Assembly: GCA_002070215.1 (NCBI GenBank)
Contig: MWCV01000016.1
Location: 1-55,166, forward strand
DNA length: 55,166 nt
DNA from: Chloroflexi bacterium ADurb.Bin180
GTDB lineage: Bacteria > Chloroflexota > Anaerolineae > UBA2200
Reading direction: 5' to 3'
The notes beneath the pieces are model-generated. The model searched no databases, was not told the DNA's origin, and was given only the letters and a program-made list of their open reading frames with translations. The position numbers were made by a program, and so were the translations under genes. Shown here in pieces: positions 18,497-49,402 of this stretch (the stretch's first letter is position 1; each line of letters starts with the position of its first letter).

Positions 18497-18549
18497 CTTG
18501 CTCTCCTGGATGACTCGGATAAACGCAAGGCTCCCGCCGGAGCCCGCAC

Positions 18550-19536: not shown

Positions 19537-19655
19537 TAGCACCTCTCCCTCTGCTCATCGCGATTGAAGGTCAGTGTGACCGAAATGGCCACTCATTCTC
19601 GCGCTCGGCTCGCCGGCTCCGTGCCGCGCGCCGAGCCCGTCTTCTCCGGCGAATA

Positions 19656-20876
19656 CTACCGCAGCTTGTCGGCCAGGACTCGAGGCAGCCAGGCGTACCA
19701 CTCGGTGGCGCGTACCACATCGTCGAGCAGAACGTGCTCATTCATCGTGTGTGCCGTGACCTCGTCGCCTGGCCCAAACCCGATGGACGGAATCTGCGCC
19801 TTGCCCATCCAGTATGTGCCGTTGGTGGAGAAATCCCATTTCCCCAGTGGCAGTGCCTGGCCCCACAATGCCTGGAGCGCCTGTTGCCCCGCCTGCACCA
19901 GCGGATGGGTATCTTCCATCGCCCAGGCCGGAAAGTACTTTGCTACCGGAAAGACAAAGCCGGTGTACGACGGCGTGTCATAGAACAGCTCTTTCACGAC
20001 GATCTCTTGCTGCAAGTAGTCGGGGATGAGCCCCCTGATCTGCGCAATGACCTCGTCGTGGGGCTCGTTCAGCGTGATGCGTCGGTCAAGGTATATCGTG
20101 AACAGATCCGGCACGGCATTGAGCGAGGCCGTGCGCACCGTGGCATCGGTCACGACTACCGTGCCGTTTCCCAGAATCGGGTGGCTGCCCAGGCCCGAGC
20201 GCAGGCGCTGGTCAAGGTCCCGGATCCCCTGGATCACCGGCATCATCTTGTAGATGGCATTGTCGCCCAGATAGTGCGACGCAGCGTGGGCCGACGCGCC
20301 GCTGGCCGTGACTTGCAGCTCGATGCGCCCCTTGTGCCCGCGGTACACCCGCATGCAGGTGGGCTCGCCGATGACGACATAGGCGGGCCGTACCCCGGGG
20401 TCAACCTGCACAAAGGTGTTGGGGGCAATGCCATCGCACCACTCTTCCATGTTGCCGAAATAGTAGGCTGTATAGCCGTCGAGTAGGCCCAGATCGCGCG
20501 CGATGGCCAGGCCGTACACCATTCCGGGGGTACTGCCTTTCTCGTCACAAGCCCCGCGGGCAAACAAGCGACCGTCCTCAACCTTGCCCACGAACGGATC
20601 CCACGCCCATTCACTAGCATCACCGATGCCAACCGTGTCGATGTGCGAGTCGTAGACAATGACTCTGGGCCCGTTCCCGATGCGCCCAATGGTGTTGCCC
20701 ATCCGGTCGAAACGCACCTCGTCGTAGCCCAGCAGGCGCATTTCGGCCTGAATTCGTTCGCCCACCGGCCCAATTTCCGAGTTCATCGAAGGAATGGCGC
20801 AGATGTCACGCAGGAAACGAACGATGTCCCCCTGTGCGGCTTGCACGCGTTGTCGGATGTCAGTGACTGCTGGCAT
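19656..20876 (-). CDS. YgeY-like M20 family metallohydrolase
   Basis: Zinc-dependent M20 deacylase/aminopeptidase, 406 residues. Metal and catalytic residues are visible: HID (78-80), GACDEKG (108-114) with the bridging Asp, EE (144-145), the IGEPTC region and a late His in EVTAHTMNEH. The lid dimerisation domain lies near 185-290 (GHKGRIELQVTASGASAHAA). The family member YgeY is linked to the ygeW/ygeX/yqeA gene set in enterobacteria and clostridia. The ATG at 20876 follows GGGGGAGAG; a TTG 24 bases upstream is less likely. First gene of the ygeY-ygeW-arcC-like unit. Confidence 0.85.
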   Translation of the reverse strand: MPAVTDIRQRVQAAQGDIVRFLRDICAIPSMNSEIGPVGERIQAEMRLLGYDEVRFDRMGNTIGRIGNGPRVIVYDSHIDTVGIGDASEWAWDPFVGKVEDGRLFARGACDEKGSTPGMVYGLAIARDLGLLDGYTAYYFGNMEEWCDGIAPNTFVQVDPGVRPAYVVIGEPTCMRVYRGHKGRIELQVTASGASAHAASHYLGDNAIYKMMPVIQGIRDLDQRLRSGLGSHPILGNGTVVVTDATVRTASLNAVPDLFTIYLDRRITLNEPHDEVIAQIRGLIPDYLQQEIVVKELFYDTPSYTGFVFPVAKYFPAWAMEDTHPLVQAGQQALQALWGQALPLGKWDFSTNGTYWMGKAQIPSIGFGPGDEVTAHTMNEHVLLDDVVRATEWYAWLPRVLADKLR

Positions 20877-20953
20877 ATCTCTCCCCCTGTGTTTCTTCAA
20901 GGCCGGTCATCTCGTTGAAATCGACTCCACCCGGGTACAGCGTCTTGGCTTCT

Positions 20954-26496: not shown

Positions 26497-28305
26497 TCAT
26501 AGTGCCACGCTCTCGCCCTGGGCGGGAGCGGACTGCCGTTGCCGTCTCGCTGCGCGCCAGCGGGCGCTGTCGTCGACCTGTACTTCGTTCAGGCGCCGGT
26601 ACAGCCCCTGGCCGGCCATGAGCTGCTCGTGGGTGCCCTGCTCTACAATCCGGCTTCCCTCCAGAACTACGATCGTGTCCGCGGAACGAATCGTGGACAG
26701 GCGATGCGCGATGACAATCGTCGTTCGTCCGACCATCAGCCTCTCCAGCGCCTGCTGAATGAGCATCTCCGTTTCGGCGTCCACCGAGGAAGTGGCCTCG
26801 TCGAGAATCAGGATCGGCGCATCCTTGAGCACCGCTCTGGCAATGGCCACGCGCTGCCTCTGCCCGCCCGAGAGCTTGACTCCCCTCTCGCCAATCACCG
26901 TGTCATAGCCCTGAGCCAGCGCCGTGATGAACTCGTGCGCATTGGCTACCCTGGCTGCGGCGATCATCTCCTCTTCGCTGGCACCCGGTCGGCCAAAGAG
27001 GATGTTCTCGCGCACCGTGCCGTGGAACAGGAACACGTCCTGCAGCACGATGCTGATCTGCTTGCGCAGGCTGCGCAGCTTGATGTCGCGTACGTCTACG
27101 CCATCCAACTGAATCGAGCCCTCGCACACGTCGTAGAACCGGGGAATGAGCTTGGACAACGTGGTCTTGCCAACCCCCGTGGGCCCGACCAGGGCAGTCA
27201 CCGTTCCCGCGGGAATATCCAGGTTCACCTGCTGCAGCACCACGTCGCCCTGGCGGTACCAGAAGGCCACGTCGCGCATGGTGATGGTGCCTCTGGCCCG
27301 CTCCTTGAGCTCGACCGCGCCGGGCCGGTCCGCGACGTCCGGCTTTTCGTCGAGCAGCTCGGCGATGCGCTCCGCTCCGGCCAGCGACTGCTGAACTGCG
27401 TCCCAGGCCTCGCTCAGGGCGCGCACCGGTTCATAGAGCCGCTCCAGGTACAGGAAAAAGGCCACCAGAGAGCCGAGGCTCAATGCACCGACCAGCACGA
27501 GCCGTCCGCCAAAGAACACGAGCACCAGCGTGCCCAGCCCCGAAAAGAACTCGACCAGCGGCTGAAATGCGGCCATCAACCGCAGTGCATGCAAGTTCGA
27601 GTCGCGGTAGCGCACGATGTGCCCGAGGATACGCGTGGCCTGTGTGTCCTCACGGGTAAAGGCCTGTATCTCACGGATGCCGGACAGGTTATCGTTGAGC
27701 ACGGCGTTGAGTTCGCCCAGCTCCACCTGCCGCTGCCTGAAGGCCGGCCGCACGTACCTGCCGTAGCCCCGCATCGCTACCACGATCAGCGGAATGGGCG
27801 CCATGCTCAGGAGGGCCAGCGTCGGGCTGACGCGCGTCAGCACAACCGTGACCCCCACCAGCATGAGCACGTTCACTGCTACATCAGGCACTGCGTGAGC
27901 CATCAACTGCTCGATCAGATCCGAGTCGTTGACCACCCGTGACATGAGCTGCCCGGTCTGCTTGTCTTCGTAGAACGATGGCGAGAGCTGCTGTAAGTGC
28001 TCGTACACCGCCGCCCGTACGTCCGCTACCACGCCCCACCCCGCTACGTGCGCCATGTACGAGCGGACAAAGCGCAGCACAACCTGAGCGGCATAGGCCG
28101 CCAGTCCCAGCAGCGCCAGCCGCGTCAGGCTGGCCATCTGCTCCGCGCGGACGCCACTCGACGTCACCGTATCGACCATCGTTTTCACGACCCAGGGAAC
28201 AACAAGGCGGACGGCCGTCAGCAGGAACATACTGACGACCGTCCAGATGAGAGGCCAGGTGTATTTCCTGGCAAAGCGAAACACAAAGCGCAACGGCCTC
28301 ATCAC
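26497..28305 (-). CDS. ABC exporter (MsbA-like, fused TMD-NBD)
   Basis: A 602-residue half-transporter expected to act as a homodimer. Six helices lie in residues 1-320. The ATPase domain has Walker A VGPTGVGKTTLS, Q-loop, signature LSGGQRQRVAIARA and Walker B ILILDEATSSVD with catalytic Glu, so all motifs are intact, unlike the 11.5-15.1 kb pair. It overlaps the MacB-type ATPase stop by four bases, so it is translated with the efflux operon. Substrate unknown; lipids, drugs or peptides are typical. Confidence 0.93.
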   Translation of the reverse strand: MMRPLRFVFRFARKYTWPLIWTVVSMFLLTAVRLVVPWVVKTMVDTVTSSGVRAEQMASLTRLALLGLAAYAAQVVLRFVRSYMAHVAGWGVVADVRAAVYEHLQQLSPSFYEDKQTGQLMSRVVNDSDLIEQLMAHAVPDVAVNVLMLVGVTVVLTRVSPTLALLSMAPIPLIVVAMRGYGRYVRPAFRQRQVELGELNAVLNDNLSGIREIQAFTREDTQATRILGHIVRYRDSNLHALRLMAAFQPLVEFFSGLGTLVLVFFGGRLVLVGALSLGSLVAFFLYLERLYEPVRALSEAWDAVQQSLAGAERIAELLDEKPDVADRPGAVELKERARGTITMRDVAFWYRQGDVVLQQVNLDIPAGTVTALVGPTGVGKTTLSKLIPRFYDVCEGSIQLDGVDVRDIKLRSLRKQISIVLQDVFLFHGTVRENILFGRPGASEEEMIAAARVANAHEFITALAQGYDTVIGERGVKLSGGQRQRVAIARAVLKDAPILILDEATSSVDAETEMLIQQALERLMVGRTTIVIAHRLSTIRSADTIVVLEGSRIVEQGTHEQLMAGQGLYRRLNEVQVDDSARWRAARRQRQSAPAQGESVAL

Positions 28306-29021
28306 GCGCCTCCTGCGGCTGCCGCCTTTGACTGCACTTCGTCTGCTACCAGCATCCCGTCCCTGAGTCGGATCAGCCGCCTGGCTCTGGCGCTGACCGT
28401 GGGGTCATGGGTCACGATGATCAGTGTGAGCCCCTGCTCCGCGTTCAACCGCTCCAGGATCCCCATCAACTCCTGTCCGGACTTGGAATCCAGGTTGCCG
28501 GTGGGCTCGTCGGCCAGGAGCATGAACGGATCATTGATCAGTGCCCTGGCCACTGCCACTCTCTGCTGTTCGCCGCCGGAGAGCTCGGTCGGGCGGTGCT
28601 TGAGCCGACCGGCCAGCCCGACGCTGCCCAGCAGTTCCGCGGCCCGCTTCTGGTCGCCCCTGCCGGCGGTATAGTAGTGCGGCAGCTCCACGTTCCGCAC
28701 TGCGCTAAAGCGCTTGAGCAGCGAATAGTCCTGAAACACAAAGCCGATGCCTGTCCCCCTGAGCCGCGACAACTGCGCGTCTCCCAGACTGCGTACGTCC
28801 TTGCCACGCAAGCGGTACGTCCCCTGCGTGGGCAGGTCCAGGCAGCCCAGCAGGTTCAGCAGAGTGCTCTTGCCCGACCCCGACGGTCCCACAATGGCCA
28901 GATACTCGCCCTGCGCGATGCTCAGGTCGAGGTTCTTGAGCGCGGGCACGGTCACTTTGCCCATGCGGTACTCTTTACCCACATCGACCATTTCGACCAG
29001 TGTCTTGCCAACTTCGTTCAT
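28302..29021 (-). CDS. MacB/LolD-type ABC ATPase
   Basis: A 239-residue cytoplasmic ATPase: Walker A GPSGSGKSTLLN, signature LSGGEQQRVAVARAL and Walker B LLADEPTGNLDS. GNLDS is the D-loop typical of the MacB/LolD/FtsE group, which drive FtsX-type permeases. Its permease is the adjacent upstream gene (6 bases away). With the two HlyD-like adaptors it makes a MacAB-like efflux or lipoprotein-release machine. Confidence 0.93.
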   Translation of the reverse strand: MNEVGKTLVEMVDVGKEYRMGKVTVPALKNLDLSIAQGEYLAIVGPSGSGKSTLLNLLGCLDLPTQGTYRLRGKDVRSLGDAQLSRLRGTGIGFVFQDYSLLKRFSAVRNVELPHYYTAGRGDQKRAAELLGSVGLAGRLKHRPTELSGGEQQRVAVARALINDPFMLLADEPTGNLDSKSGQELMGILERLNAEQGLTLIIVTHDPTVSARARRLIRLRDGMLVADEVQSKAAAAGGA

Positions 29022-29027
29022 CGTCGG

Positions 29028-30347
29028 CTATCCTCTCCGCAGGGCCGCGGTCGGCTGAAGCGACGCGGCTCGCCAAGCCGGGTAGATGCTGGCCAACACA
29101 CCCACGATGAGCGAGACAATCACTGCGATGGCGACGACCTCCGCCGACACAGTGGCCATACCCTTGACCTGTTCGATGAGCCGACTGGCAACATAGGAAC
29201 CGCCCAGCCCCAGTGCGAGACCGCCCGCCCCGCCGAGCAGGGCAATCAGCACACCCTCGCTGAGAAACTGCAGCAGGATATCGCTCTTTTCCGCACCAAC
29301 CGAGCGTCTGAGGCCGATCTCCCAGGTGCGCTCCGCCACCCCGACCAGCATGATGTTCATCAGCCCGATGCTGCCCACCACCAGCGAGATCCCGGCAATG
29401 GCCGACAGGATCACCGTGATCGTCCGGATAATGGCCATGCTCTCTTCGCTCCATTGCAGGGTGTCCTGCACCATAAAGTCCTCCGGCGACCCGGCGGCGA
29501 TGCCCCGTCTTGCCCTGAGGATAGTGTTGATCTCGGCCACGGCCGTCTTGCGCCGTGCCGAGTCGCGGTCGTCCACCCGCGCCGCAATGTAGCTGATGAT
29601 GGTCTTGCCCTCCGTGGACAGGCGCATCTGAGCGGTATGCAGCGGCAGCAGCACGGCGCGGTTGGCAATGCCCACGACTCCCGGCCTTCGGCTTGTCACC
29701 CCGATGATGGTAAAGACCTGCGGCACGTCGGATTGCACGATTCTTAGGGTTTCGCCCACTGGATTGGCCCCTTTGCCCCATACCTGGTCCACCAGGCTCT
29801 CGTCGAGCACCACCACTGCCGCGGCCTGGTCGTTGTCCTCCAGCGTGACAAAGCGCCCGTACTTCATCGTCGTCCGAAACACGGTCAGGTACTCGGGCAG
29901 CACGCCGTCGATACCCGGGTTTGGCACGTATTGCCCCTTGTAGATGACCTGTGCCCAGCCCTCGTAGAGTGGCGTGATCGCCACTACCCTGGTGGCCAGC
30001 CGGCGCAGCGCTTCCACGTCCTGGGCTTCCAGGCCCCTCGGCTGAGATTGCTGAGGCACACCCGGCCCAGGGAGAGCCGCCCCCTTGACGCTTGCGGCAA
30101 GGGAGGACGCCTCCATCTCAAGAGGCATCACACCCATGTACGGCATGAACTGCGGGCGAATCTCCACCGTCCCGGCTGACCAGGCCTCCATCTGCTCCTG
30201 AGTGGAGCGGCGCAGGCCGTTGCCGAGCGACACGATCATGATTACCGCCCCCACGCCGATGACCACACCGAGCATGGTCAGGCCAGAGCGCAGCTTGTTC
30301 GTCCGTAGCCCGAGCAGGGCAAACCAGAAGTTGACCAGTCTCCTCAT
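29028..30347 (-). CDS. MacB-like ABC permease (FtsX family)
   Basis: A 439-residue membrane protein with the MacB layout: one N-terminal helix (ALLGLRTNKLRSGLTMLGVVIG region), a large extracytoplasmic domain (about 50-310) and three C-terminal helices (LSAIAGISLVVGSIGLMNIMLVGV, then ILLQFLSEGVLIALLGG, then VVAIAVIVSLIVGVLASIYPA). RTWEIGLRRSVGA is the conserved FtsX cytoplasmic coupling loop. MacB-like permeases push substrates from the outer face of the membrane by mechanotransmission instead of moving them across it. Confidence 0.92.
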   Translation of the reverse strand: MRRLVNFWFALLGLRTNKLRSGLTMLGVVIGVGAVIMIVSLGNGLRRSTQEQMEAWSAGTVEIRPQFMPYMGVMPLEMEASSLAASVKGAALPGPGVPQQSQPRGLEAQDVEALRRLATRVVAITPLYEGWAQVIYKGQYVPNPGIDGVLPEYLTVFRTTMKYGRFVTLEDNDQAAAVVVLDESLVDQVWGKGANPVGETLRIVQSDVPQVFTIIGVTSRRPGVVGIANRAVLLPLHTAQMRLSTEGKTIISYIAARVDDRDSARRKTAVAEINTILRARRGIAAGSPEDFMVQDTLQWSEESMAIIRTITVILSAIAGISLVVGSIGLMNIMLVGVAERTWEIGLRRSVGAEKSDILLQFLSEGVLIALLGGAGGLALGLGGSYVASRLIEQVKGMATVSAEVVAIAVIVSLIVGVLASIYPAWRAASLQPTAALRRG

Positions 30348-30395
30348 AATGACCTCACGCTATGCAGGATCCTCACAGGATATCCTTGTCCGCGC

Positions 30396-32012
30396 CTATT
30401 GCCAGCGCGGCCTGATCGGCGACTGCAGCACGACTCGCACCAGCTCACCCTCGGCCAGGCCCTCGACGATCTCCGTCTCGATGCCGTCGCTGACGCCGGT
30501 CTTGACCGCGCGACGGTTGGCCCGGCCCTTTTCGACCACGAGCACGAATGTACCCTCCAGGTCCCTCTGTACGGCCATGGTGGGCACCTTGAGCACATTC
30601 TCTTTGCGGTCCAGAGGAACAGCAACGTTCGCCGACATGCCCACGCGCAACTGCAGGTCGCCTGGCTCGAACGTCACCGGCACGTTGAACACGGTGATGC
30701 CATTCTGATAGGTGCCATAGCGCGGGATTTCACCAAGCTGACCGGGCACGCTCTCCCCGGGGAAGGCGTCAAAGGTCAGCGTAACATCCTGCCCTTCGGT
30801 GAGCCGGCCAATGTCCATCTCATTTGCCGCCGCTTTCACTCGCAACGATTCGGCGCTCATCAACGTCAGGAGCGACTGCCCCGGCGCAACCGTGGCCCCG
30901 GGAGCCACCGTGACCTCTCCGATGACCCCCGTGAAGGGCGCCACGATGGTCGCCTCTTTCACGCTGGCTTCAGCGTCGGCGGCCCGCCGCTGTAGCTTGA
31001 CTACCTGGGCCTGGGCCTTGGCCACATCGGGGTCCACGTCGCCCTCTTCCAGGGCGCGCAGGCGGTCCTGAAGCTGCTGCACCCTGGCCTGGGCCTGCTG
31101 AACGGCCGCCTGATGCTTCTCGAGTTCGATGGCTGCGCTTCCAGCCGCGATCTCTTTCACCAGCACATCAACGTCTCGCCTGGCCTGCTCCACCTTCTGC
31201 TCGGCTGCTCGCACGTCCATATCATGTCGCAGCAGAGCTTGATTGTAGGTCTCTCGAGTGTTCAACATGACGATGCGCAGCAGCCACTCGCGGTCGCGAT
31301 CCTCTTCGCTCGGGTGGGTGATCCAGGCATAGGGCCCGTGCTCGATCTCGGCCAGGTCCGCCGTGATACGCTGGCCCTCCAGAGCATCACGGGCTGCTTG
31401 GCCATCTCTCGTTTCCACCAGCGCGTCGCGGGCCAGCTCGAGCTCGGCCCTGGCCGTAGCCAAACGGTCAGCAGGTGTTCCCTTGCCCTTCTTGAACCGC
31501 TCCAGCTCGCTGCGCGCATCATCCAGCGTTTGACGGGCCTTGCGCAGCTCTTCCTCTAGCGCGATACGCTTGCTCAGCCCGCGGTCCTCCACCAGCCGGT
31601 CGAGGTCGTTCCTGGCCGTCAGCAGCTCGCCTCGCACTTTGGCCAGGTCGCGCTGCAATGCGGCCGCATCGAGTTCGATCAGGAGCTGCCCTTGCTGCAC
31701 CACATCGCCAGGGGTGGCGTAGACCATGGCCACGCGTCCCGCAGCTTCCTGAAAGGAGAGCCGCACCGTGCGCAGGGGCTCGATTGTGCCGCTCAGAAGC
31801 AGCGCCTCGGCCAGCGGTCCCCGCGTGACAGCGACATCATTGGTCTGTTCCACCATGAGACCCGGTGTCTGTTGCTTCGGACTGAACAGGTTCTTGGCTC
31901 GTGGGTAGGCCCAGACGGCACACAGAAGCAGTGCCAGCAAAGCAACTCCACCCACAATCGCATTCACTCGGCGGCTGCGCCGCTCGTCAATGTCGTACTG
32001 GTCGTTTGCCAT
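30396..32012 (-). CDS. HlyD/MacA-like adaptor protein
   Basis: A 538-residue membrane-anchored adaptor. One helix lies near 17-36 (IVGGVALLALLLCAVWAYP). A lipoyl-like half (LLLSGTIEPLRTVRL, GDVVQQGQLLIELD) and a long coiled-coil hairpin (about 100-330) follow. The second lipoyl half (APFTGVIGEVTVAPGATVAPGQSLLTL) and beta-barrel regions close the protein. The ATG at 32012 is used because GGAG lies seven bases before it. It partners the MacB-like permease immediately downstream. In an organism without a classical outer membrane such adaptors may shape a periplasm-like tunnel. Confidence 0.9.
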   Translation of the reverse strand: MANDQYDIDERRSRRVNAIVGGVALLALLLCAVWAYPRAKNLFSPKQQTPGLMVEQTNDVAVTRGPLAEALLLSGTIEPLRTVRLSFQEAAGRVAMVYATPGDVVQQGQLLIELDAAALQRDLAKVRGELLTARNDLDRLVEDRGLSKRIALEEELRKARQTLDDARSELERFKKGKGTPADRLATARAELELARDALVETRDGQAARDALEGQRITADLAEIEHGPYAWITHPSEEDRDREWLLRIVMLNTRETYNQALLRHDMDVRAAEQKVEQARRDVDVLVKEIAAGSAAIELEKHQAAVQQAQARVQQLQDRLRALEEGDVDPDVAKAQAQVVKLQRRAADAEASVKEATIVAPFTGVIGEVTVAPGATVAPGQSLLTLMSAESLRVKAAANEMDIGRLTEGQDVTLTFDAFPGESVPGQLGEIPRYGTYQNGITVFNVPVTFEPGDLQLRVGMSANVAVPLDRKENVLKVPTMAVQRDLEGTFVLVVEKGRANRRAVKTGVSDGIETEIVEGLAEGELVRVVLQSPIRPRWQ

Positions 32013-32038
32013 GATTGGCTCCATTCCGTCACCTGGTC

Positions 32039-33595
32039 TCAACGCATGTACACGCCGCCGCCATAGGGGCTTGTGGCGGCCACGAGCGGCACCATCACCG
32101 TTTCGCCTTCAACCAGCCCGGACAGCACCTCAACCTGGATGCCATCGTTCATCCCCAGTTCGACGGTGCGCTGCTCGATGCCGTTGTCCTTGCGGCGCAC
32201 GTCGACGTAGGTTTCTCCCATCTGGTTGTAGCGGACTGACGCCGAGGGGATGGTCAGTACGTTATGGCGCTCGCCGATGAGGATGCGGGCGTTGCCGTAC
32301 ATCCCCAGCCGAATGGCCGATTCGCCTGGCTCCAGCGTGGTGACGACCTGGTAGTAGGCAATGCCGCTCTGATTGACCACCTGTTGCGGCAGGTCAAGCA
32401 CCGTCCCAAGGAAGATCTGGCCTGGGTACATATCAAAGGTCACGCGCACTGTCTGCCCCACTTCGACCCGGGGGACATCGACCTCGGTGACCTGCGCCTT
32501 GAGTCTCAGCTCGCGGAAATCGGCCAGGAACAGCACCTTCTGGCCGGAAGCCACGGTGTCGTTGGCTCCAACGTACAGCGCCACCACCGTGCCATCGAAG
32601 GGAGCGCGCAGCGTGCCCGCATCCACCGACGCCCGCGCCGACTGCATCGCTGCCTGCGCTGCCTCATAGGCGGTGCGCGCAGCCTCAACCGCTCCGCTCT
32701 CGCCGCCGGCCTTGAGTGCATCGACTTTGGCCTGAGCCGTAGCCAGGGCCTCCACAGCCGCGCGGTAGGCCAGTCTGGCCGCAGCGGCCGGATCGTCTTT
32801 TGCCTGGAGCGCCCGGTCGAGGTCCTCTTGAGCGCGCGCCAGCTCCCGCTGTTTGCTCTGAACCGCGTCGCGTTCCTTCTCCAGGGCCTGCCCGCGCGCG
32901 GTGCGCGCCTTGTTCAAGGCTCTTTCTGTTTCGGCCAGGCTTTTCTGCGTCTCCGCCCGCTGCGGATCATCGGGGGACATATCGCGCAGCACACGCTGGC
33001 GAAAGGCCTGGTCGTATTCGAGCCGTCGGATTTCTGCCTGCCCTTCACCGATCTCTTTGAGGCGCAGCTCGTCCTGAGCCACGCGCAGCGCAAACGCCGC
33101 GTCAGCCACTTGCTGCTTGAGCGGGCCTGTGCCACTCTCTTCGGCCAGAGTCAGCGCCATTTTGGTGTGCTCGGCCCCGTACTGTGCCATCGCCAGGTCG
33201 GCCTCGGCCCTGGCCAGCTCACCCTGTCCTGAGCCCTTCTGCGCCGCCTGCAGTGCCGCCTCGGCGGCCTTCAGGTCGGCTTCGGCCTCGCGCAGGGTGC
33301 GCTGGTATCCGGTAGTGTCCAACTGGAGCAGCTCTTGCCCTGCCTGTACCTCCTGGCCAGTGCGTACGGCCAGGTTCACGATTCGGCCAGAGACGCTGCC
33401 CAGATCAAGCTCCAGCGAATGTACCGCGACTACCTGCCCGGCCATCTGCACTACGGTGGCCACAGCGCCGCGCTTTACCTCGACTGCCGACGCATAGGCC
33501 TCGCCGGAGCCCGAGTTGCTGCGGCAGGCGGCCGTCAGCAGCAGGATGGCAATCATCAGCAGGGCTCGGCATTTGTGTTGCCAACGCTCTCTCAT
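32039..33595 (-). CDS. Lipoprotein HlyD/MacA-like adaptor
   Basis: A second adaptor of 518 residues. The ATG at 33595 has GGAGG about ten bases upstream and gives MRERWQHKCRALLMIAILLL with a lipobox LTAAC, so the protein is a lipid-anchored form. The lipoyl, coiled-coil (about 70-320) and barrel regions are in the same order as in the following gene, and the two are clearly paralogous. Two adaptors for one MacB-like permease suggests a hetero-oligomeric adaptor. First confident gene of the five-gene efflux operon. Confidence 0.9.
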   Translation of the reverse strand: MRERWQHKCRALLMIAILLLTAACRSNSGSGEAYASAVEVKRGAVATVVQMAGQVVAVHSLELDLGSVSGRIVNLAVRTGQEVQAGQELLQLDTTGYQRTLREAEADLKAAEAALQAAQKGSGQGELARAEADLAMAQYGAEHTKMALTLAEESGTGPLKQQVADAAFALRVAQDELRLKEIGEGQAEIRRLEYDQAFRQRVLRDMSPDDPQRAETQKSLAETERALNKARTARGQALEKERDAVQSKQRELARAQEDLDRALQAKDDPAAAARLAYRAAVEALATAQAKVDALKAGGESGAVEAARTAYEAAQAAMQSARASVDAGTLRAPFDGTVVALYVGANDTVASGQKVLFLADFRELRLKAQVTEVDVPRVEVGQTVRVTFDMYPGQIFLGTVLDLPQQVVNQSGIAYYQVVTTLEPGESAIRLGMYGNARILIGERHNVLTIPSASVRYNQMGETYVDVRRKDNGIEQRTVELGMNDGIQVEVLSGLVEGETVMVPLVAATSPYGGGVYMR

Positions 33596-33807
33596 TGAAC
33601 AGAATCCTCCCTCAGTAGCGGGTAAATGCACGGGTAGTGGACGTCGTACCGGACGACCTTGTTCCACTGGCGGCGCGGGTCGCGGGCCTGCTGCGGCCAG
33701 GGGCGGCCGGCCAGCCACCCCTGTCGAGCCCACTCCTCGTTTGCATGCGCCCTCGTCTCGCCGTGTTCCCGGGCCCGGCGTTCCGTATGGATGACGCTTT
33801 CACGCAA
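33592..33807 (-). CDS. Possible small protein, coupled to the adaptor gene
   Basis: An open frame of 71 codons (from TTG at 33807) ending with a TGA that overlaps the adaptor ATG (ATGA). Codon third positions are GC-rich like real genes here and the product is Arg/Trp-rich (EEWARQGWLAGRPWPQQA). There is no convincing Shine-Dalgarno and I recognise no family. A competing frame covers the same bases. It may simply be leader sequence. Confidence 0.25.
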   Translation of the reverse strand: MRESVIHTERRAREHGETRAHANEEWARQGWLAGRPWPQQARDPRRQWNKVVRYDVHYPCIYPLLREDSVQ

Positions 33808-33927: not shown

Positions 33928-35061
33928 TCACAGCCACTCGTCATAGCCTTCAAGGTGCAGGTCGTCGCACACCGCGCGCAGGTCGCGCCGCAGGTTGGCG
34001 TTGAGCCCGATGCCGTCCCTCATGACTCGCTGCACGCTCTCGTATTCCTTCTCCCCGGCCACATAGATGCGCTCGTGACCGGGCTCTTTCCGTGACCCCT
34101 GCAACTGGCGCATGATCTGGCCGGTCGTGTGCCGCGACTCTTCCAGCGGCACAAAGTGACCCACATCCACGGCCAGGAAGAAATGGCCCAGCATGAACGG
34201 CCTCCTGGCGCCCTTTTCGTCTACTCCCAGCAAATCCTGCAGGAACGCGCCTCCCGCCAGCGACGCCGAAAGGATCTCGACCATCGTGCCCAGACCGTAG
34301 CCCTTGTGCCCGCCCATCGCCTCGCCCTGGCCGCCCAGCGGCAAAAAAGCCGCCTGCCCCTTGTCCAGAGCCTTGAGGATCTGCTCGGCATTGGTGGACG
34401 GCCGTCCCTGCGCATCGATCAGCCAGCCCTCTGGCACTGGCTTTTCGGCCCTGGCCAGCACTTCGATCTTGCCGCGCTGGGTGATCGGCGTTGCGCCATC
34501 GTAGCAGAACGGAAACGGCCCGTCCGACGGTGCGGCAAAGGCGATGGGGTTGGTACCCAGCATGGGCTGCGTACCAAAGGTCGGAGCCATCGCCGGTCGC
34601 GCGTTGGTCACCGTGAGGCCGATCATTCCTTCCTCGGCCGCCATCAGCGAGTAGTAGCCAGCGATGCCAAAATGCGTCGAGTTGCGCACTGCGGCCGCGC
34701 CGAGCCCGTATCGCCTGGCCTTGCCGATAGCCATTCTCATCGCGCGGTAGGCGATGACGTGCCCCATCCCATGGTGCCCGTCGAGCACCACCGTCGTCTC
34801 CGTCTCGCGCACGACCTCCAGGACGGTGACCGGCAACTGGATGCCCAGCCTGATGCGGTCGCAGTAGTACTTGAGCCTTCCGATGCCGTGCGATTCGATG
34901 CCGCGCAGGTCGGAGGAGATGAGCACGTCAACGCAAATGCTCGCATCGTCCCCCGGCACACCCAGGGCGACAAAGGCGTCCTGTATCAGTCGCTTCGCTG
35001 CTCCGACCGGGAGGCGAACCTCCTCACCTGCTCGCCCAGGCGCTATTTCGGGATGCGCCAC
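33928..35061 (-). CDS. Ldh/malate dehydrogenase family oxidoreductase (Ldh_2)
   Basis: NAD(P)-dependent 2-hydroxyacid dehydrogenase of the YlbC/AllD/MDH type II family, 377 residues. SSDLRGIESHGIGRL (about 49-63), NSTHFGIAGYYS, GTNPIAFAAP and GHKGYGLGTMVEILS are characteristic. The family includes malate, ureidoglycolate, sulfolactate and Delta1-piperideine-2-carboxylate enzymes; sequence alone does not choose. The GTG start overlaps the end of the multiheme gene by 19 bases, so the two are coupled although no metabolic link is evident. Confidence 0.9.
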   Translation of the reverse strand: MAHPEIAPGRAGEEVRLPVGAAKRLIQDAFVALGVPGDDASICVDVLISSDLRGIESHGIGRLKYYCDRIRLGIQLPVTVLEVVRETETTVVLDGHHGMGHVIAYRAMRMAIGKARRYGLGAAAVRNSTHFGIAGYYSLMAAEEGMIGLTVTNARPAMAPTFGTQPMLGTNPIAFAAPSDGPFPFCYDGATPITQRGKIEVLARAEKPVPEGWLIDAQGRPSTNAEQILKALDKGQAAFLPLGGQGEAMGGHKGYGLGTMVEILSASLAGGAFLQDLLGVDEKGARRPFMLGHFFLAVDVGHFVPLEESRHTTGQIMRQLQGSRKEPGHERIYVAGEKEYESVQRVMRDGIGLNANLRRDLRAVCDDLHLEGYDEWL

Positions 35062-37229
35062 TGGTGGTATTCTTCTTTCAGCACCGCACTGGTCACGCCA
35101 GGCAAGAGCTCCTCCGCCTCAACGACCAGTTCGTTGTAGAAGCGATCCGCTACCTCATAAAAGCCGTGCCACTGCACATAGTCGGGTCCCATCATCGCGG
35201 CGCCGTGGCGTGCCCTGCGGCCTTCGTGGTGCCAGAGCATGTAGTAGGTCCACTCGATCTTTTCGTCAAACTCCATCGGTGTCAGCTTGCCCGCGGCGCG
35301 CAGAGCCTTCATGATCTCCCCTGCCGGCAGGGCGAACTTGTTGTTGTACAGCTCGACCGCGTCGTCATACTGCTGGAAGAAGCTGGCCCGGAACGGCGGC
35401 GAGTGGCACTGGGCGCACACCGAATCCATGCGCGCTCGTTTGGTGTCGGCATCCTCCACCTTGACCGAGACTGCCGGCCTGAGCGTCCACGAGATCCTCA
35501 GCCCGACGTCGTGGTTGACCCCCATGCCCGGCACAGCGCTCATGTGGCAGGTGGCGCAGGTGGGAGCCGCGCTGTAATCCTCGCCCAGCACCCAGGGGCG
35601 CTGCGCCAGGGCCATCCGCTCACGGTTGGCCTTGAAGGCCACGCCGTGCTTGCTCTCGTCATAGATCTCGACCTGCGGGTGATCCGGCCCCATATGGCAG
35701 TTGCCGCACGCTGCCGGCTCTCTGCCCACCGCCACGGTGAACCTGTGTCTGGTGTGACAGGTGGAGCAAGCGCCCAGGCTGCCATCGGGATTGATGCGCC
35801 CCATGCCCGTGTTCGGCCAACTGGCAGCGGTAGGCTTGTGGTTCTCATCGAGCATTACCTGCGAGCCGTGGCACTGTCTGCAGCCCATCACTGCTGCTGC
35901 CTCACCCTCGACTCGCTCACCGAGAATGTTGTCCAGCGAAGCCAGGATGTTTCCTGCCTGCGCGTGGCGGCTGGCGCCGAACTGACCCGCTTCAGTCAGG
36001 TGGCACTTGCCGCAGTCCTTCGGCGTCACCAGCAAGCTGATGGTGAACCCGTTGTGCGCGAACGCATCCGGTTCATCCGGCTGAGCACCGTGGCACTCGT
36101 AGCAGGCAGTGCCCGCTTTGGCCATTACGCTACCGCTCCACTCCTCAAGCTGCGCCTGGCCAAAGTTGTTCGTCTTGTGGCAGGCGATGCACTGCCGCGA
36201 TTCGTCCGAGAGTGGCGCGAGCTGCACCACTGGCACGGATGGTGCGGCCTTCTGGAGCGTGAATCCCCACTTCCACCAGGCAACGCACATCAAGATGCCC
36301 AGCACCAGCAGCAAGTTGAGGTAGGCTACCCTTACAAAGGTGCGGTGGGCGCGCGGCCCCTGGCCGTCTTCCGCTGCGGCTGTGCTGCCTGCAGCCAGCG
36401 TGCCCGCTGCGGTCACCCGCTCCATCACTTCAGCCCCGTGCGGCGCAGCCTTTAGCTCTTCGGTCAGGTCCTGGCCAGCGAGGTGCTTCCGCATGTGCTG
36501 GCCTTCTTTCCACAGGCGGTTGCCGGTCACATCATAAACCTTGCCGTCCACTGCTACCAGGGCCTTGCGCCCCTCCTTGCCGTCGAACCCCGCCAGGGCA
36601 GCCACCGTCATTCCTTCACCGGCCGCAGACGGCGGGGCGGTCTTGGGCGCCTTCATTCTCCTGTCCAGCACGAACGTGGCCACGGCAGCCATCGCCACCA
36701 GCAGCACATACTGAGCTAACTTGATGATGAATACTTTGCCCCACGTCCCGGCAAAGATGGTGCCGGTGTTCGCGTAGCGCAATGTCGTGAGGATCACCCC
36801 GCTGATACCCATAATCGCGATGCTGATCCAGCCCAGCTTGCGTTCGGCCTTGGGTAAGCCGGTCGTCAGAAACTGTGGCCGCACCATCAGGTGAACGTAG
36901 AGGATTGTGCCGAGCCACAGCACCGCCGTGAAGAGATGGATGTAACCTACCACCAGCTTGAGCACGTTGAGTGCCGGCGATGTGGGTGGGTTTGGCGCGG
37001 TCACTCCAGCCGGAATGGGCCAGACATAGCCGCCTTTGGCATAAGCCGCTCCTTTAGAAGTGAGCGTCCCCCCGCCTTCCGGCGCCACGTGACAGATGCC
37101 GCAGGGTTGCCCGGTCCTCGCAGCATAGTCTGGCGTAGCATGGGAAACTTGACGAGGAAGAGCAGCCCACACGACGAGGGCTACAAAGAGAATACAGACT
37201 AGACTCAGACTGCGTGACATCCGTCTCAT
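35043..37229 (-). CDS. Nine-heme fusion: CopD-like membrane, cytochrome b5-like and HAO-like octaheme domains
   Basis: A 728-residue exported membrane cytochrome. The ATG at 37229 follows AGGAGG; the signal peptide spans about 1-31. A first heme site CGICH (43-47) precedes a four-helix CopD/DUF2269-like domain (about 88-190). A cytochrome b5-like segment follows (about 212-275: DGKEGRKALVAVDGKVYDVT, then HMRKHLAGQDLT), and a helix near 300-318. The C-terminal ~390 residues carry eight CxxCH sites (347, 376, 406, 450, 488, 508, 558, 605). CAQCHSPPFRASFFQQYD and LYNNKFALP resemble hydroxylamine-oxidoreductase-like octaheme proteins. It probably moves electrons between the membrane pool and an extracytoplasmic N- or S-compound. 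The catalytic substrate is unproven. Confidence 0.8.
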   Translation of the reverse strand: MRRMSRSLSLVCILFVALVVWAALPRQVSHATPDYAARTGQPCGICHVAPEGGGTLTSKGAAYAKGGYVWPIPAGVTAPNPPTSPALNVLKLVVGYIHLFTAVLWLGTILYVHLMVRPQFLTTGLPKAERKLGWISIAIMGISGVILTTLRYANTGTIFAGTWGKVFIIKLAQYVLLVAMAAVATFVLDRRMKAPKTAPPSAAGEGMTVAALAGFDGKEGRKALVAVDGKVYDVTGNRLWKEGQHMRKHLAGQDLTEELKAAPHGAEVMERVTAAGTLAAGSTAAAEDGQGPRAHRTFVRVAYLNLLLVLGILMCVAWWKWGFTLQKAAPSVPVVQLAPLSDESRQCIACHKTNNFGQAQLEEWSGSVMAKAGTACYECHGAQPDEPDAFAHNGFTISLLVTPKDCGKCHLTEAGQFGASRHAQAGNILASLDNILGERVEGEAAAVMGCRQCHGSQVMLDENHKPTAASWPNTGMGRINPDGSLGACSTCHTRHRFTVAVGREPAACGNCHMGPDHPQVEIYDESKHGVAFKANRERMALAQRPWVLGEDYSAAPTCATCHMSAVPGMGVNHDVGLRISWTLRPAVSVKVEDADTKRARMDSVCAQCHSPPFRASFFQQYDDAVELYNNKFALPAGEIMKALRAAGKLTPMEFDEKIEWTYYMLWHHEGRRARHGAAMMGPDYVQWHGFYEVADRFYNELVVEAEELLPGVTSAVLKEEYHQWRIPK

Positions 37230-44791: not shown

Positions 44792-45565
44792 ATGCTGCCT
44801 CCCCTCGAGTGGTCCACACCGCCGCGCGATGTCGTGATTGGCCCGGGTCAGTGCCATCTGTGGCGCTTTCGGCTCGAACCACCCGAGGCGCACCTGTGGG
44901 ACCTCCTGTCATCGGACGAGCTGGAGCGTGCCCAACGCTACCGCTTCTCACACCACGAGCAGCATTTCGTCGCCGGCCGGGCGACGCTGAGGCAGATCCT
45001 TTCCCACTATCTGGGTCTGGAACCCGGCCGCATCTGCTTCATCTACTCGGGGCACGGGCGGCCCGCCCTGGACCCGGCCTGCCTGCCTGACGGTCAGCCG
45101 CCGGCACTGGATTTCAGTCTGGCCCATTCAGAGGACCGCGCCCTGCTCGCGGTGGGTCTTGGAGTCCGCGTCGGCGTCGACCTGGAGCGAATCGACCCGG
45201 ACAAGGTCGACCAAGACCTCCTCAGCCTGGTCTGCTCCCCTGGCGAGCTGGGCCAACTGACCCCGCTGTCGCACACGGACCAGGTGACCCGTTTCTATCG
45301 CTGCTGGACGTGCAAGGAAGCCTATTTGAAGGCCCGCGGCGAAGGGCTTATACTACCAATGAGCAGCATTGCCGTCCTGCGCGATGATGGGGAGACGTTG
45401 ACTGGGCCCGAGTTGTCTGACGCTGCCTACTGTCCCGGCGCCTGGTCGCAGCTTGTTCTGACTGCCTGGCCCGGATTCGCCGCGGCGCTGGTCTGGGCCA
45501 GCCCCCAAGATTCGGACGCTGTCCGGCCATCGTTTCGGCAGTGGGAATGGAGGTCACCTGCATGA
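44792..45565 (+). CDS. 4'-phosphopantetheinyl transferase, Sfp type
   Basis: A 257-residue enzyme that transfers the phosphopantetheine arm of coenzyme A to a serine of carrier proteins. GVDLERI (near 127-133) and [15 protein letters not shown] (near 172-186) hold the magnesium-binding Asp, Glu and the conserved Lys. [15 protein letters not shown] is the first Sfp motif. The length matches Sfp and not the small AcpS type. Its targets are very likely the free carrier protein and the T domain encoded just downstream. Confidence 0.93.
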
Positions 45566-45780
45566 GCAGCGAAGAACCAGACACGAAAACCTACCGGGTC
45601 GTTATCAATCACGAGGAACAGTACTCCATCTGGCCGACGGACCAGGAGAACCCCCTCGGCTGGCGCGATGCCGGCCAGAGTGGCACGCGCAGCGAGTGTC
45701 TGGAGTACATCAAGCGCGTCTGGACCGATATGCGCCCGCTGAGCGTCCGCCGGCGCATGGAGCACACACAACCCCAGTGA
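45562..45780 (+). CDS. MbtH-like protein
   Basis: A 72-residue chaperone/activator of NRPS adenylation domains. The family signature is nearly complete: [40 protein letters not shown]. The ATG at 45562 overlaps the preceding stop (ATGA) and has GGAGGT upstream. MbtH proteins bind A domains, here most likely the one in the 46115-49402 gene. Confidence 0.95.
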
Positions 45781-45787
45781 GGCCTTT

Positions 45788-46072
45788 GTGACTACTCAAT
45801 CGCCTTCTGCTGACGCCACCTTGCCTGCCGCCCCGCGTTCGGCGGTCGAAGCCGAGATCGCGGCCATGGCTGCTGAGGTGCTTGGCCTGCCAACCGTTGG
45901 CGTGGAGGACAACTTGCTCGACCTCGGAGCCGCATCTCTCGAGCTGGGCCAGATCATCGTCCGCGTTCGCCAGCGCTATGGTGTGGAGGTGCGAATGGTT
46001 CCTTTCTTCGACACTCCCACCGTCGCCTACCTCGCGACCTTGGCGGAACAAGCTACAACGAGAACCTCATGA
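45788..46072 (+). CDS. Free peptidyl/acyl carrier protein
   Basis: A 94-residue carrier protein with an N-terminal extension of about 18 residues. DNLLDLGAASLEL (about 41-53) has the phosphopantetheine Ser in GAASL, near residue 50. A-domain-linked carriers usually have GGxS; AAS resembles stand-alone ones. It sits directly before an NRPS whose first domain is a condensation domain, which needs a donor on a carrier. The loading enzyme for this carrier is not in the operon. Confidence 0.9.
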   Translation: MTTQSPSADATLPAAPRSAVEAEIAAMAAEVLGLPTVGVEDNLLDLGAASLELGQIIVRVRQRYGVEVRMVPFFDTPTVAYLATLAEQATTRTS

Positions 46073-46114
46073 CGATCAAATCGCTTGTCCTCGTGCGCGC
46101 CCAGGATATGAGGA

Positions 46115-49100
46115 ATGTCCGCTGAACCATACGGTCACTCCCAACTCGATACCGAAGGACCGGGCTCGTCGGTCATCGTGCCGCGCCAGCCGCCGGGTTC
46201 TACCGTTCCGGCGTCCTTCGCCCAGAGCCGGCTCTGGTATATCGACCAGTGGCAGCCCAACAGCCCGCTCTACAACGTCGCCGACGCCTATCGACTGAAG
46301 GGACCGCTTGACGTCGACATCCTGAATCGCTGCCTGACTGAGATCGCCCGACGCCACGAGGTGCTGCGCACGCGCTTTGTTGCTCCAGAGGGCTTGCCTC
46401 TGCAGGTCATCGAGCCACCCTCGCCCATTGCCAGTACCCTGCGCGACCTGTCTGCGGAGCCTCGCGCGGAGGTGGAAGCACGCCTCCAGGCGCTGATCAC
46501 CGCCGAAGTGCACCGCCCTTTTCGTCTCGACGAGCTTCCACTCTGGCGCAGCCTGCTCATCCGCCTGGCTCCTGATGAGCACGTCTGGGTCTTGACCATC
46601 CATCACATCATCTACGATGCCTGGTCCGGCCAGATACTGCACCGCGAACTGGCAGCGCTTTATCGCGCCTTCTCCCAGGGCCAACCGTCGCCTCTGCCCG
46701 AGCTGGGAATCCAGTACGCCGACTTTAGTGTTTGGCAGCGCAAGCAGGCCCACAGTCCGCTCTTTCGCGAGCAGCTCGAGTTCTGGCGGTCGAGACTCTC
46801 CGGAGCCCCGGCCCTGCTAGAGTTGCCCGCGGACCGACCGCGCCCGTCGGAAATGACCACCTCCGGCGCGACCGTGCGGACGGAGCTACCCGCGGAGTTG
46901 GACGCGGCCCTGACCTCCTTCTCTCGAGCGCAGCGCGTCACGCCATTCGTTACGCTCCTGGCTGCCTTCGCCGCTACCCTGTACCGGATCAGCGGCCAAT
47001 CCGACCTGGTCATCGCCGCCCCTGTGGCCAACCGTACTCAAGTGAAGATCGAGCCGCTGCTGGGGTTCTTTGTCAATACCCTGGCCCTGCGCATCGACGT
47101 CTCGGGCCGGCCGAGTTTCCGACGCCTTGTCGAGCGTGTGCGAGACGTCGTTTTCGACGCCCTCGATCACCAGGACCTGCCTTTCGAGCGGCTCGTGGAA
47201 GAGCTGCAGCCACAGCGGGCACTGACCCATACTCCGATTTTTCAGGTGCTTTTCCAGCTCAACGAGATCGGACGCGTTCCGCTGCTCTTTGACGACATCT
47301 TGGTCGAGGAGACACCCTTCGACTATGGCGTCGCTCGAATGGACCTGGCCGTTACTCTGAATCGCTCTCCGGCCGGCCTGCGCGGGTTCGCCATCTACAA
47401 CTCGGACCTCTTCGATGCTGCCACCATTCAGAGTCAGCTCGCCGCTTTCGCCGCTCTGCTGGAGAAGGCTCTGGCCAACCCGGACACCCCGGTGGAGCAA
47501 CTGCCCCTGCTGGCACCGGCGGACCGCCAGCGCGTCCTGGTCGACTGGAATCGCACCCAAGAGGCATACCCGGCTGACCTCTGCCTGCATCAGCTCTTTG
47601 AGCGGCAGGCTCAGAGCCGTCCTACCGCCTGTGCCGTGAGCGACCAGGCAGGCGACCAGTTGAACCGCCGCGCCAACGCTCTGGCTCGCCAACTGCTGCA
47701 GCGCGGGGTTGGCCCCGAGGTGCCCGTCGCTCTGCTCGTCGACAACTCGGCGGCTGCCGTGGTTGCCATCCTGGCTGTGCTCAAGGCCGGTGGCGCCTAT
47801 GTCCCGCTCGATCCCACCGCCCCTGATGAGAGGCTGGGCCTCATCATCAGAGACTCGGGCGCGCGCCTGGCTCTGGCTGTGCCCGCTCTGGCGCCGCGCC
47901 TCCGCGCTTCGGGCCTGCAATGCCTCCTGGTTCAACACCACGACCCTGCCCCACCTGGCGACTGGGCCGAGAATCCCTCTACTGGGGTCACGCCGGATAA
48001 CCTGGCCTACATCATCTACACCTCTGGCTCCACCGGCACCCCCCGCGGCGTGCAAATTGCCCACCGCGGCCTGGTGAACCTCATCCACTTTGACCTGCGC
48101 GCCTTTCGCATCGGCTCCTCGGCCCACGTGCTTCAACCCCTGGCCATCAGCTTTGACGCCGCTACCATGCAGATCTTTAACGCTCTGGGCGGGGGCGGGT
48201 GCGTATATATGCCCGACGCGGAGACGCTCCTCTCTCCGCCAGCGCTCCTGCAGTACGTCTCGCAGAACAAGGTCAGCCACACCACTTTTGTCGTCTCGAT
48301 GATGATGGCCCTGCCTTATGCCCACTTGCCCGATTTTTGCGACGTGGCCGTTGGCGGCGAAGCGGTTCCCCCAGAACTGGTCGCCCGCTGGATCAAAGGC
48401 CGCCGCCTGTACAATGTGTACGGTCCGACCGAAACGAGCATTCTGACCGTTTGGGCGCCGTGCGCTGTCGATGCCCAGAAACCGCCCATCGGCCGCCCGA
48501 TCGCCAACTGCTTCGCCTATGTGCTTGACAGCAACCTTCAACCGATGCCCGTCGGGGTAGTAGGCGAGCTCTGTCTCGGCGGGGTCGCCGTGGCCCGCGG
48601 TTACCTCAATCAGCCCGCGCTCACCGCGGAGAGGTTCGTGCCCGATCCGTTCTGCGGCGAGCCGGGAGCCAGAATGTACCGCACGGGCGACCTGGTGCGC
48701 TTCCTGCCAGACGGCAACATCGACTTTGTGGGTCGGCGCGACTTTCAGGTAAAGGTGCGCGGCTTTCGCGTCGAGCTGGGCGAAATCGAGAGTGCCCTGC
48801 GCCAGCACCCGGCGGTGGCCGAGGCCGTCGTTCAGACCTATGACGCGCCTGGCAGTCAGCATCAGCTTGCGGCCTACGTGGTGTTGAAAGCCGACCGCAC
48901 TGTCTCCGTGGCCGACCTGATGGAGCACCTGTCGCGGAAAGTACCCCCCTACATGCTTCCCACGTCCCTGACGGTCCTGCCGGCCATGCCCCTTACCTCG
49001 GCAGGCAAACTGGACCGCCGGGCCCTGCCTGCCCCCGCTAGGCCGGTTGGCGTTGGTACCCTCATCGAACCAACCACCGCGATGGAGCGCCTGGTGGCTG

Positions 49101-49402
49101 CCGTCTGGTGCCGTGCGCTCGGGCTGGAGAAGGTCAGTGTGAGGGACAACTTTTTCGACCTGGGCGGGCACTCGCTGCTGGCGATGCAGGTCATCGCCCA
49201 GGTTCATCAGCAGACGGGCATCCAGCTCAGTCCGCGTGAGATGGTCCTGGGTACACTGGCACAGGTGGCAGCCGCTCTTGAGCGCTCGGCCAAAACGACC
49301 ACTCCCGAGCCAGGTCCGTCGGCGCCCTCGCCTGTGGCCGCAGCCGGCCGCCTTTCGGGTCTAGTGGACCGCCTGTTGCGCCGCTGGCGCGGTGGCCAAT
49401 GA
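46115..49402 (+). CDS. Nonribosomal peptide synthetase, single C-A-T module
   Basis: A 1095-residue synthetase. The condensation domain (about 25-450) has HHIIYDAWSG (162-171), the HHxxxD active site. The adenylation domain (about 465-970) has YIIYTSGSTGTPRG (631-644), NVYGPTETS (766-774), YRTGDLVRFLPDG (855) and SAGKLDRRALP with the catalytic Lys (about 962). The carrier domain has DLGGHSLLA with Ser near 1019. No thioesterase or reductase follows; the last ~40 residues are a Pro/Ser/Arg tail. The A1-A2 region (TACAVSDQAGDQLNRRANALA) lacks about seven residues of the usual LTYxELN stretch. The binding pocket has the Asp expected for an alpha-amino acid (SFDAATM); specificity is not predictable with confidence. 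Confidence 0.95.
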   Translation: MSAEPYGHSQLDTEGPGSSVIVPRQPPGSTVPASFAQSRLWYIDQWQPNSPLYNVADAYRLKGPLDVDILNRCLTEIARRHEVLRTRFVAPEGLPLQVIEPPSPIASTLRDLSAEPRAEVEARLQALITAEVHRPFRLDELPLWRSLLIRLAPDEHVWVLTIHHIIYDAWSGQILHRELAALYRAFSQGQPSPLPELGIQYADFSVWQRKQAHSPLFREQLEFWRSRLSGAPALLELPADRPRPSEMTTSGATVRTELPAELDAALTSFSRAQRVTPFVTLLAAFAATLYRISGQSDLVIAAPVANRTQVKIEPLLGFFVNTLALRIDVSGRPSFRRLVERVRDVVFDALDHQDLPFERLVEELQPQRALTHTPIFQVLFQLNEIGRVPLLFDDILVEETPFDYGVARMDLAVTLNRSPAGLRGFAIYNSDLFDAATIQSQLAAFAALLEKALANPDTPVEQLPLLAPADRQRVLVDWNRTQEAYPADLCLHQLFERQAQSRPTACAVSDQAGDQLNRRANALARQLLQRGVGPEVPVALLVDNSAAAVVAILAVLKAGGAYVPLDPTAPDERLGLIIRDSGARLALAVPALAPRLRASGLQCLLVQHHDPAPPGDWAENPSTGVTPDNLAYIIYTSGSTGTPRGVQIAHRGLVNLIHFDLRAFRIGSSAHVLQPLAISFDAATMQIFNALGGGGCVYMPDAETLLSPPALLQYVSQNKVSHTTFVVSMMMALPYAHLPDFCDVAVGGEAVPPELVARWIKGRRLYNVYGPTETSILTVWAPCAVDAQKPPIGRPIANCFAYVLDSNLQPMPVGVVGELCLGGVAVARGYLNQPALTAERFVPDPFCGEPGARMYRTGDLVRFLPDGNIDFVGRRDFQVKVRGFRVELGEIESALRQHPAVAEAVVQTYDAPGSQHQLAAYVVLKADRTVSVADLMEHLSRKVPPYMLPTSLTVLPAMPLTSAGKLDRRALPAPARPVGVGTLIEPTTAMERLVAAVWCRALGLEKVSVRDNFFDLGGHSLLAMQVIAQVHQQTGIQLSPREMVLGTLAQVAAALERSAKTTTPEPGPSAPSPVAAAGRLSGLVDRLLRRWRGGQ

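Follow-up and report, generated by a model that had tools for sequence, protein, structure and literature searches.

The fused gene and its modules

We analysed positions 1 to 55,166 of contig MWCV01000016.1 of Chloroflexi bacterium ADurb.Bin180 (assembly GCA_002070215.1), a stretch that we refer to as the window. A single gene at 35043..37229 on the minus strand, the strand of all of its features described below, encodes a protein of 728 amino acids with nine CxxCH motifs, at residues 43, 347, 376, 406, 450, 488, 508, 558 and 605. It is one frame from the ATG at 37229 to the stop codon that ends at 35043, with a Shine-Dalgarno sequence (AGGAGG) seven bases 5' of the ATG. A motif scan of the protein found neither CxxCK nor a long-spaced C-CH motif, including CX15CH.

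From the N-terminus, the protein comprises a signal helix, a monoheme site, three helices, a cytochrome b5 domain, one further helix and a domain with eight CxxCH motifs. In Pfam searches it matched Multi-haem_cyto (PF13447) with 84.6 bits (cut-off 21.9) and Cyt-b5 (PF00173) with 25.7 bits (cut-off 23.7), while its CopD score of 31.8 bits falls slightly below the cut-off of 32.1. The full-length AlphaFold model (pLDDT 60, pTM 0.36) served for helix boundaries only; together with hydropathy it places the signal helix at residues 6-23, three helices at 85-116, 127-155 and 162-192, and the helix after b5 at 291-321. The preliminary description of this DNA had read the gene as one chain with nine hemes that joins monoheme, CopD-like, b5 and octaheme modules, and the single open reading frame, Pfam and AlphaFold bear this out. 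It put four helices ahead of the b5 domain, where there are three, with one more after it.

The same full-length chain occurs in three more of the order's seven genomes, which makes four in all, with 77% (G001), 64% (G005) and 60% (G004) identity to the protein studied here. Because dN/dS is well below 1 in each module for which dS could be computed, all of these modules are under purifying selection, which indicates that selection preserves the chain as a whole. The possibility that the reading frame represents two genes, or a joint made in assembly, is ruled out by its recurrence in four genomes, its single frame and this purifying selection.

The membrane module

The signal or anchor helix (residues 1-30; 37140..37229) precedes the monoheme module (residues 31-84; 36978..37139), which has its CGICH at residues 43-47. 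Residues 31-70 are rich in positions invariant among all four fusions, and the motif ATxDYAxxTGQPCxxCH..GGG is also carried by small proteins of the class that stand alone. The CopD-like membrane part (residues 85-195; 36645..36977) consists of three helices, and in a small test set it matched stand-alone four-helix CopD/DUF4149-like proteins with an E value of 5e-9. These relatives carry one His in the first transmembrane helix (TM1) and another at the end of the third (TM3). All four fusions have kept the TM1 residue, the invariant His98, and have lost that of TM3, so that no bis-His membrane heme b can be named in them.

The cytochrome b5 domain (residues 205-282; 36384..36617) matches PDB 6NZX (6e-18) and 6VZ6 (2e-15), and shares with both its three conserved His residues (245, 249 and 264). 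The fourth membrane helix (TM4; residues 291-323; 36261..36359) contains an invariant AHR at 294-296. We considered a possible origin of TM4 from the last helix of a four-helix CopD-like protein into whose loop b5 was inserted; removal of b5 in silico did not improve the score.

Hemes of c type are necessarily located on the outer side of the cytoplasmic membrane. Since three helices separate the monoheme site from b5, the latter is expected in the cytosol, with the monoheme and octaheme facing outward; positive charges after TM3 agree with this topology.

A reading in which the membrane part is a mere anchor, b5 serves in sensing or maturation, and electrons arrive from a soluble extracytoplasmic carrier would fit the lack of a heme ligand pair within the membrane and the small b5-only proteins that are common in the class. 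We regard it as quite unlikely, given that purifying selection has kept all of the modules together and that a plain anchor would need neither b5 nor the monoheme.

The octaheme domain belongs to the HAO family

The octaheme domain (residues 338-728; 35046..36218) carries its eight CxxCH motifs within residues 347-609. In phmmer and profile searches the best match was the octaheme protein IhOCC of Ignicoccus hospitalis (PDB 4QO5; profile match 9e-71), followed by hydroxylamine oxidoreductase (HAO; 2e-39), Kuenenia HAOr and hydrazine dehydrogenase (HDH). An AlphaFold monomer model of the domain, built from a 30-sequence alignment (pLDDT 85.1, pTM 0.83), gave a VIA-align Z of 31.1 to 4QO5 and of 22-25 to HAO, HAOr and HDH, and Foldseek matched it to HAO-fold structures with E values of 3e-17 to 4e-10. 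By modelled fold the domain is thus a member of the HAO family, as the preliminary description had proposed; the model does not place it outside.

Other multiheme families are more distant. For ONR and NrfA the VIA-align Z is about 11, and the CxxCK motif is absent, so we rejected that identity. MccA was rejected likewise on its distant fold (Z 6.4, rmsd 6.1) and the absence of CX15CH, and hydrazine dehydrogenase on an NCBIfam HDH score of 80 against a cut-off of 900. OTR was not among the structural matches of the model, an observation from which no exclusion of OTR follows.

The comparison with MccA and OTR bears on the suggestion, made earlier for this gene, that a sulfur compound might be its substrate. 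A reductase of sulfite or tetrathionate would have precedents in these two multiheme relatives, which act on sulfur compounds, and the failure to find a siroheme sulfite reductase in any of the order's seven genomes speaks for it. With MccA so far removed in fold, its CX15CH missing, and OTR not among the matches, we consider this reading highly improbable.

Active site and direction of catalysis

Alignment to Nitrosomonas europaea HAO (1FGJ) identifies Asp516-His517 (35679..35684) as the equivalents of its active-site pair Asp267-His268, and both residues are invariant in the 42 octahemes that we compared. At the site of the HAO cross-link Tyr (Met679 to Trp687, 35169..35195) the sequence is M679-x7-W687-H688, with no Tyr at either candidate position. 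Trp occupies the 687 site in all 42 octahemes, and Met the 679 site in 40 of them. W687 (model residue 353) corresponds to residue 467 of 1FGJ when counted back, assuming no gap, from the last aligned pair (model 377/1FGJ 491). N. europaea Tyr334 aligns with Arg584, and Arg is found at this position only in the four fusions and in the octahemes L108 and L117.

A Trp at the Tyr position with a Met eight residues before it is the published signature of reductive-type Hao (PMC8940962), while another definition gives His as the residue of the key site (PMC12758564). As the Tyr is absent under both definitions, reduction is favoured, though the substrate is not thereby identified. From these alignments, the octaheme probably belongs to the reductive branch rather than to the enzymes of hydroxylamine oxidation, for which the preliminary description had allowed and for which the cross-link Tyr would have been expected. 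A hydroxylamine or hydrazine oxidase that sends electrons inwards would share the fold and the Asp/His pair; with W687 and H688 where the Tyr should be, and with no ammonia oxidation or anammox genes found in the neighbourhood, we think such an activity very unlikely. Two other Chloroflexota octahemes (L115 and L116) have a Tyr beside the invariant Trp (W-Y-G) and a His in place of Met679, and these are possibly oxidative-type HAO.

The active-site residues are also relevant to an extracellular role. OcwA, a cell-surface terminal reductase that reduces nitrite and hydroxylamine as well (PMC6703420), shares part of the octaheme's fold, as does an S-layer undecaheme (Z 10-11 for both). By this precedent the fusion could be a cell-surface conduit of extracellular electron transfer, with minerals, shuttles or partner cells as recipients and nitrogen-oxide reduction being incidental. 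We judge this unlikely, as the 42 octahemes show no variation at the enzyme-type active-site residues, only one HAO-family gene was found in the genome, and no further multiheme cytochrome system was noticed nearby.

Distribution of the fusion and electron partners of its relatives

No match to the fusion was found in G002 and G003, which belong to the same family, or in G006, of the same order. HAO-family octahemes are present in 74 of the 396 genomes of the class. Among those inspected, the combination of nine hemes and several helices occurs only in the four fusions; for octahemes beyond the fetched loci, fusion status was judged by the length of the open frame. In the octaheme tree the four fusions form one clade (100/99), grouped with L108 and L117 (100/99), and this clade stands apart from the NrfH-linked clade. 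In a small tree that included PDB fragments the branches were long and the placement of IhOCC unsure. The open-licence papers that we searched contain no description of a CopD/b5/multiheme fusion or of Anaerolineae octahemes, and within that literature the fusion of an HAO-family octaheme with a membrane and b5 module is previously undescribed.

The relatives of the octaheme are found time and again together with various membrane modules that deliver electrons. Sixteen inspected octahemes adjoin a four-heme gene, and the three of these genes that were run against Pfam proved to be NapC/NrfH. The L108 octaheme comes after a Rieske protein and cytochrome b, and that of L032 after a fusion of cytochrome b with ferredoxin and FlpD-like parts. 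Directly 3' of another octaheme lineage is a gene for a protein of about 310 amino acids (L032:11330-12280, L033:6512-7531, L101:2703-3620 and L107:3429-4394), and the one at L032 matched nothing in Pfam.

Genome context and gene neighbourhood

Across the order's seven genomes there was no match to NapC/NrfH (PF03264), NrfA, cytochrome b or siroheme nitrite/sulfite reductase (NIR_SIR), while control genomes were positive. These genomes are drafts (the one studied here is 95% complete), so that single absences are weak, but all seven agree. As no separate partner, NrfA or siroheme nitrite reductase was found, the fused module offers itself as the replacement, in keeping with the earlier proposal of a built-in membrane part. 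The genome has genes for cytochrome c maturation.

The genome also encodes the hydroxylamine reductase Hcp (826 bits), adjoining a Crp/Fnr-type regulator. Hcp is found in G001 as well, and G004 has a protein of matching length; G005 is seemingly without Hcp, having only a longer prismane-family protein. We did not retain Hcp as an indicator of the fusion: three of four fusion genomes against none of the three others are too few, and G004 and the negatives were called by protein length only.

The neighbours of the fusion gene are not nitrogen-respiration genes. An Ldh_2/AllD-like dehydrogenase gene lies downstream of it in the genome studied here (G000) and in G001, synteny that is confined to the genus, and a functional link between the two was therefore rejected. 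In G004 the fusion gene abuts genes for ureidoglycine aminohydrolase and allantoinase (L029:6430-9549), which, with the Ldh_2/AllD-like gene, may hint at purine catabolism near the fusion. Elsewhere in the window (5182-6006 and 17537-20900) are genes for an XdhC-type factor, carbamate kinase, a YgeW/ornithine-type carbamoyltransferase and a YgeY hydrolase, which look like a cluster for selenium-linked purine or carbamoyl degradation. MacB-like ABC efflux genes and two membrane-fusion proteins are located near the fusion in G000, G001 and G004 (window 26497-33733; L029:12046-17360), and window positions 44792-49399 hold an NRPS module (condensation, adenylation, carrier) and an open reading frame that by eye resembles a phosphopantetheinyl transferase.

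A proposed function

We favour, at slightly better than an even chance, the explanation that the protein is a membrane-anchored, outward-facing HAO-family reductase, similar to IhOCC, in which the fused module replaces a separate quinol-linked partner, and which reduces nitrite, NO or hydroxylamine. The replacement module would comprise the monoheme c, the CopD-like three-helix part, the cytosolic cytochrome b5 and the fourth helix. Electrons, from quinol or by way of the cytosolic b5, would enter at this module and pass into the octaheme relay, and the small nitrogen oxide would be reduced at the open heme beside Asp516/His517. A reverse hydroxylamine module, with reverse HAO and Hcp, has been proposed for Nautilia (PMC2628731); by analogy, at least two of the four fusion genomes have an Hcp that could complete the reduction intracellularly.

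Several observations count against this proposal: the loss of the TM3 His of the CopD-like relatives leaves the membrane route of the electrons unexplained, G005 seems not to have Hcp, the gene neighbours are of other kinds, and IhOCC itself has Val at the His517 site. The self-contained electron path put forward in the preliminary description is plausible in outline, though with one of the two CopD-type His residues kept it has no nameable membrane heme b. A rather unlikely variant is a single-chain conduit in which a cytosolic donor feeds the chain's own b5 and, through it, the extracytoplasmic octaheme as a nitrogen-oxide reductase, bypassing the quinone pool. If true, this would be a third wiring of an HAO-family enzyme, beside NapC/NrfH and Rieske/cytochrome b.

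HAO-family enzymes play a central part in the nitrogen cycle, and their membrane partners have been described as separate proteins. In this small Chloroflexota lineage, where neither cytochrome b nor NapC/NrfH was detected, enzyme and partner form one chain, and if the module works as we propose, it is a third, independently assembled way to feed a reductive octaheme. As a one-gene system it would allow donor, membrane crossing and catalysis to be tested together. Counts of hao genes should not be read as nitrification: in this class every octaheme examined has the Trp (two with a Tyr one residue on).

Comparison with known systems

IhOCC (Igni_0955) is the closest known protein in both sequence and fold (32% identity over 370 residues), and like the fusion it is a membrane-associated octaheme; it reportedly lacks the Tyr cross-link. 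It differs in standing alone, with neither membrane helices nor b5 nor monoheme, and in its Val in place of His517. Kuenenia HAOr (kustc0458, PDB 6H5L) and the epsilon-type reductive Hao share the HAO fold (Z 24.0), an identical GPDHP motif and the absence of the Tyr cross-link, and nitrite reduction is reported for them in the literature. HAOr, however, has a separate diheme subunit (kustc0457) and Hao a NapC-type partner, and neither has a fused membrane part. Nitrosomonas HAO and hydrazine dehydrogenase (6HIF) have the fold (Z 22-24) and the equivalents of the Asp/His pair, but those two are oxidative and possess the cross-link Tyr.

In the Kuenenia R/b-3 complex an HAO-like protein (Kuste4574) is attached to a membrane electron module, and the L108 locus, with its Rieske protein, cytochrome b and octaheme, follows the same logic. 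That complex is built from separate genes and includes a true cytochrome b, whereas the fusion is a single chain without one. The reverse hydroxylamine:ubiquinone redox module (HURM) of Nautilia (Hao and cM552, with Hcp) resembles our proposal in its direction and in its pairing with hydroxylamine reductase, but its partner is a tetraheme NapC-type protein rather than a fused CopD-like/b5 module. HURM in general joins an octaheme to a quinol-linked membrane cytochrome, a separate NapC/NrfH-type partner of a kind without a PF03264 match in the seven genomes of this order; the fused module may do the work of that partner.
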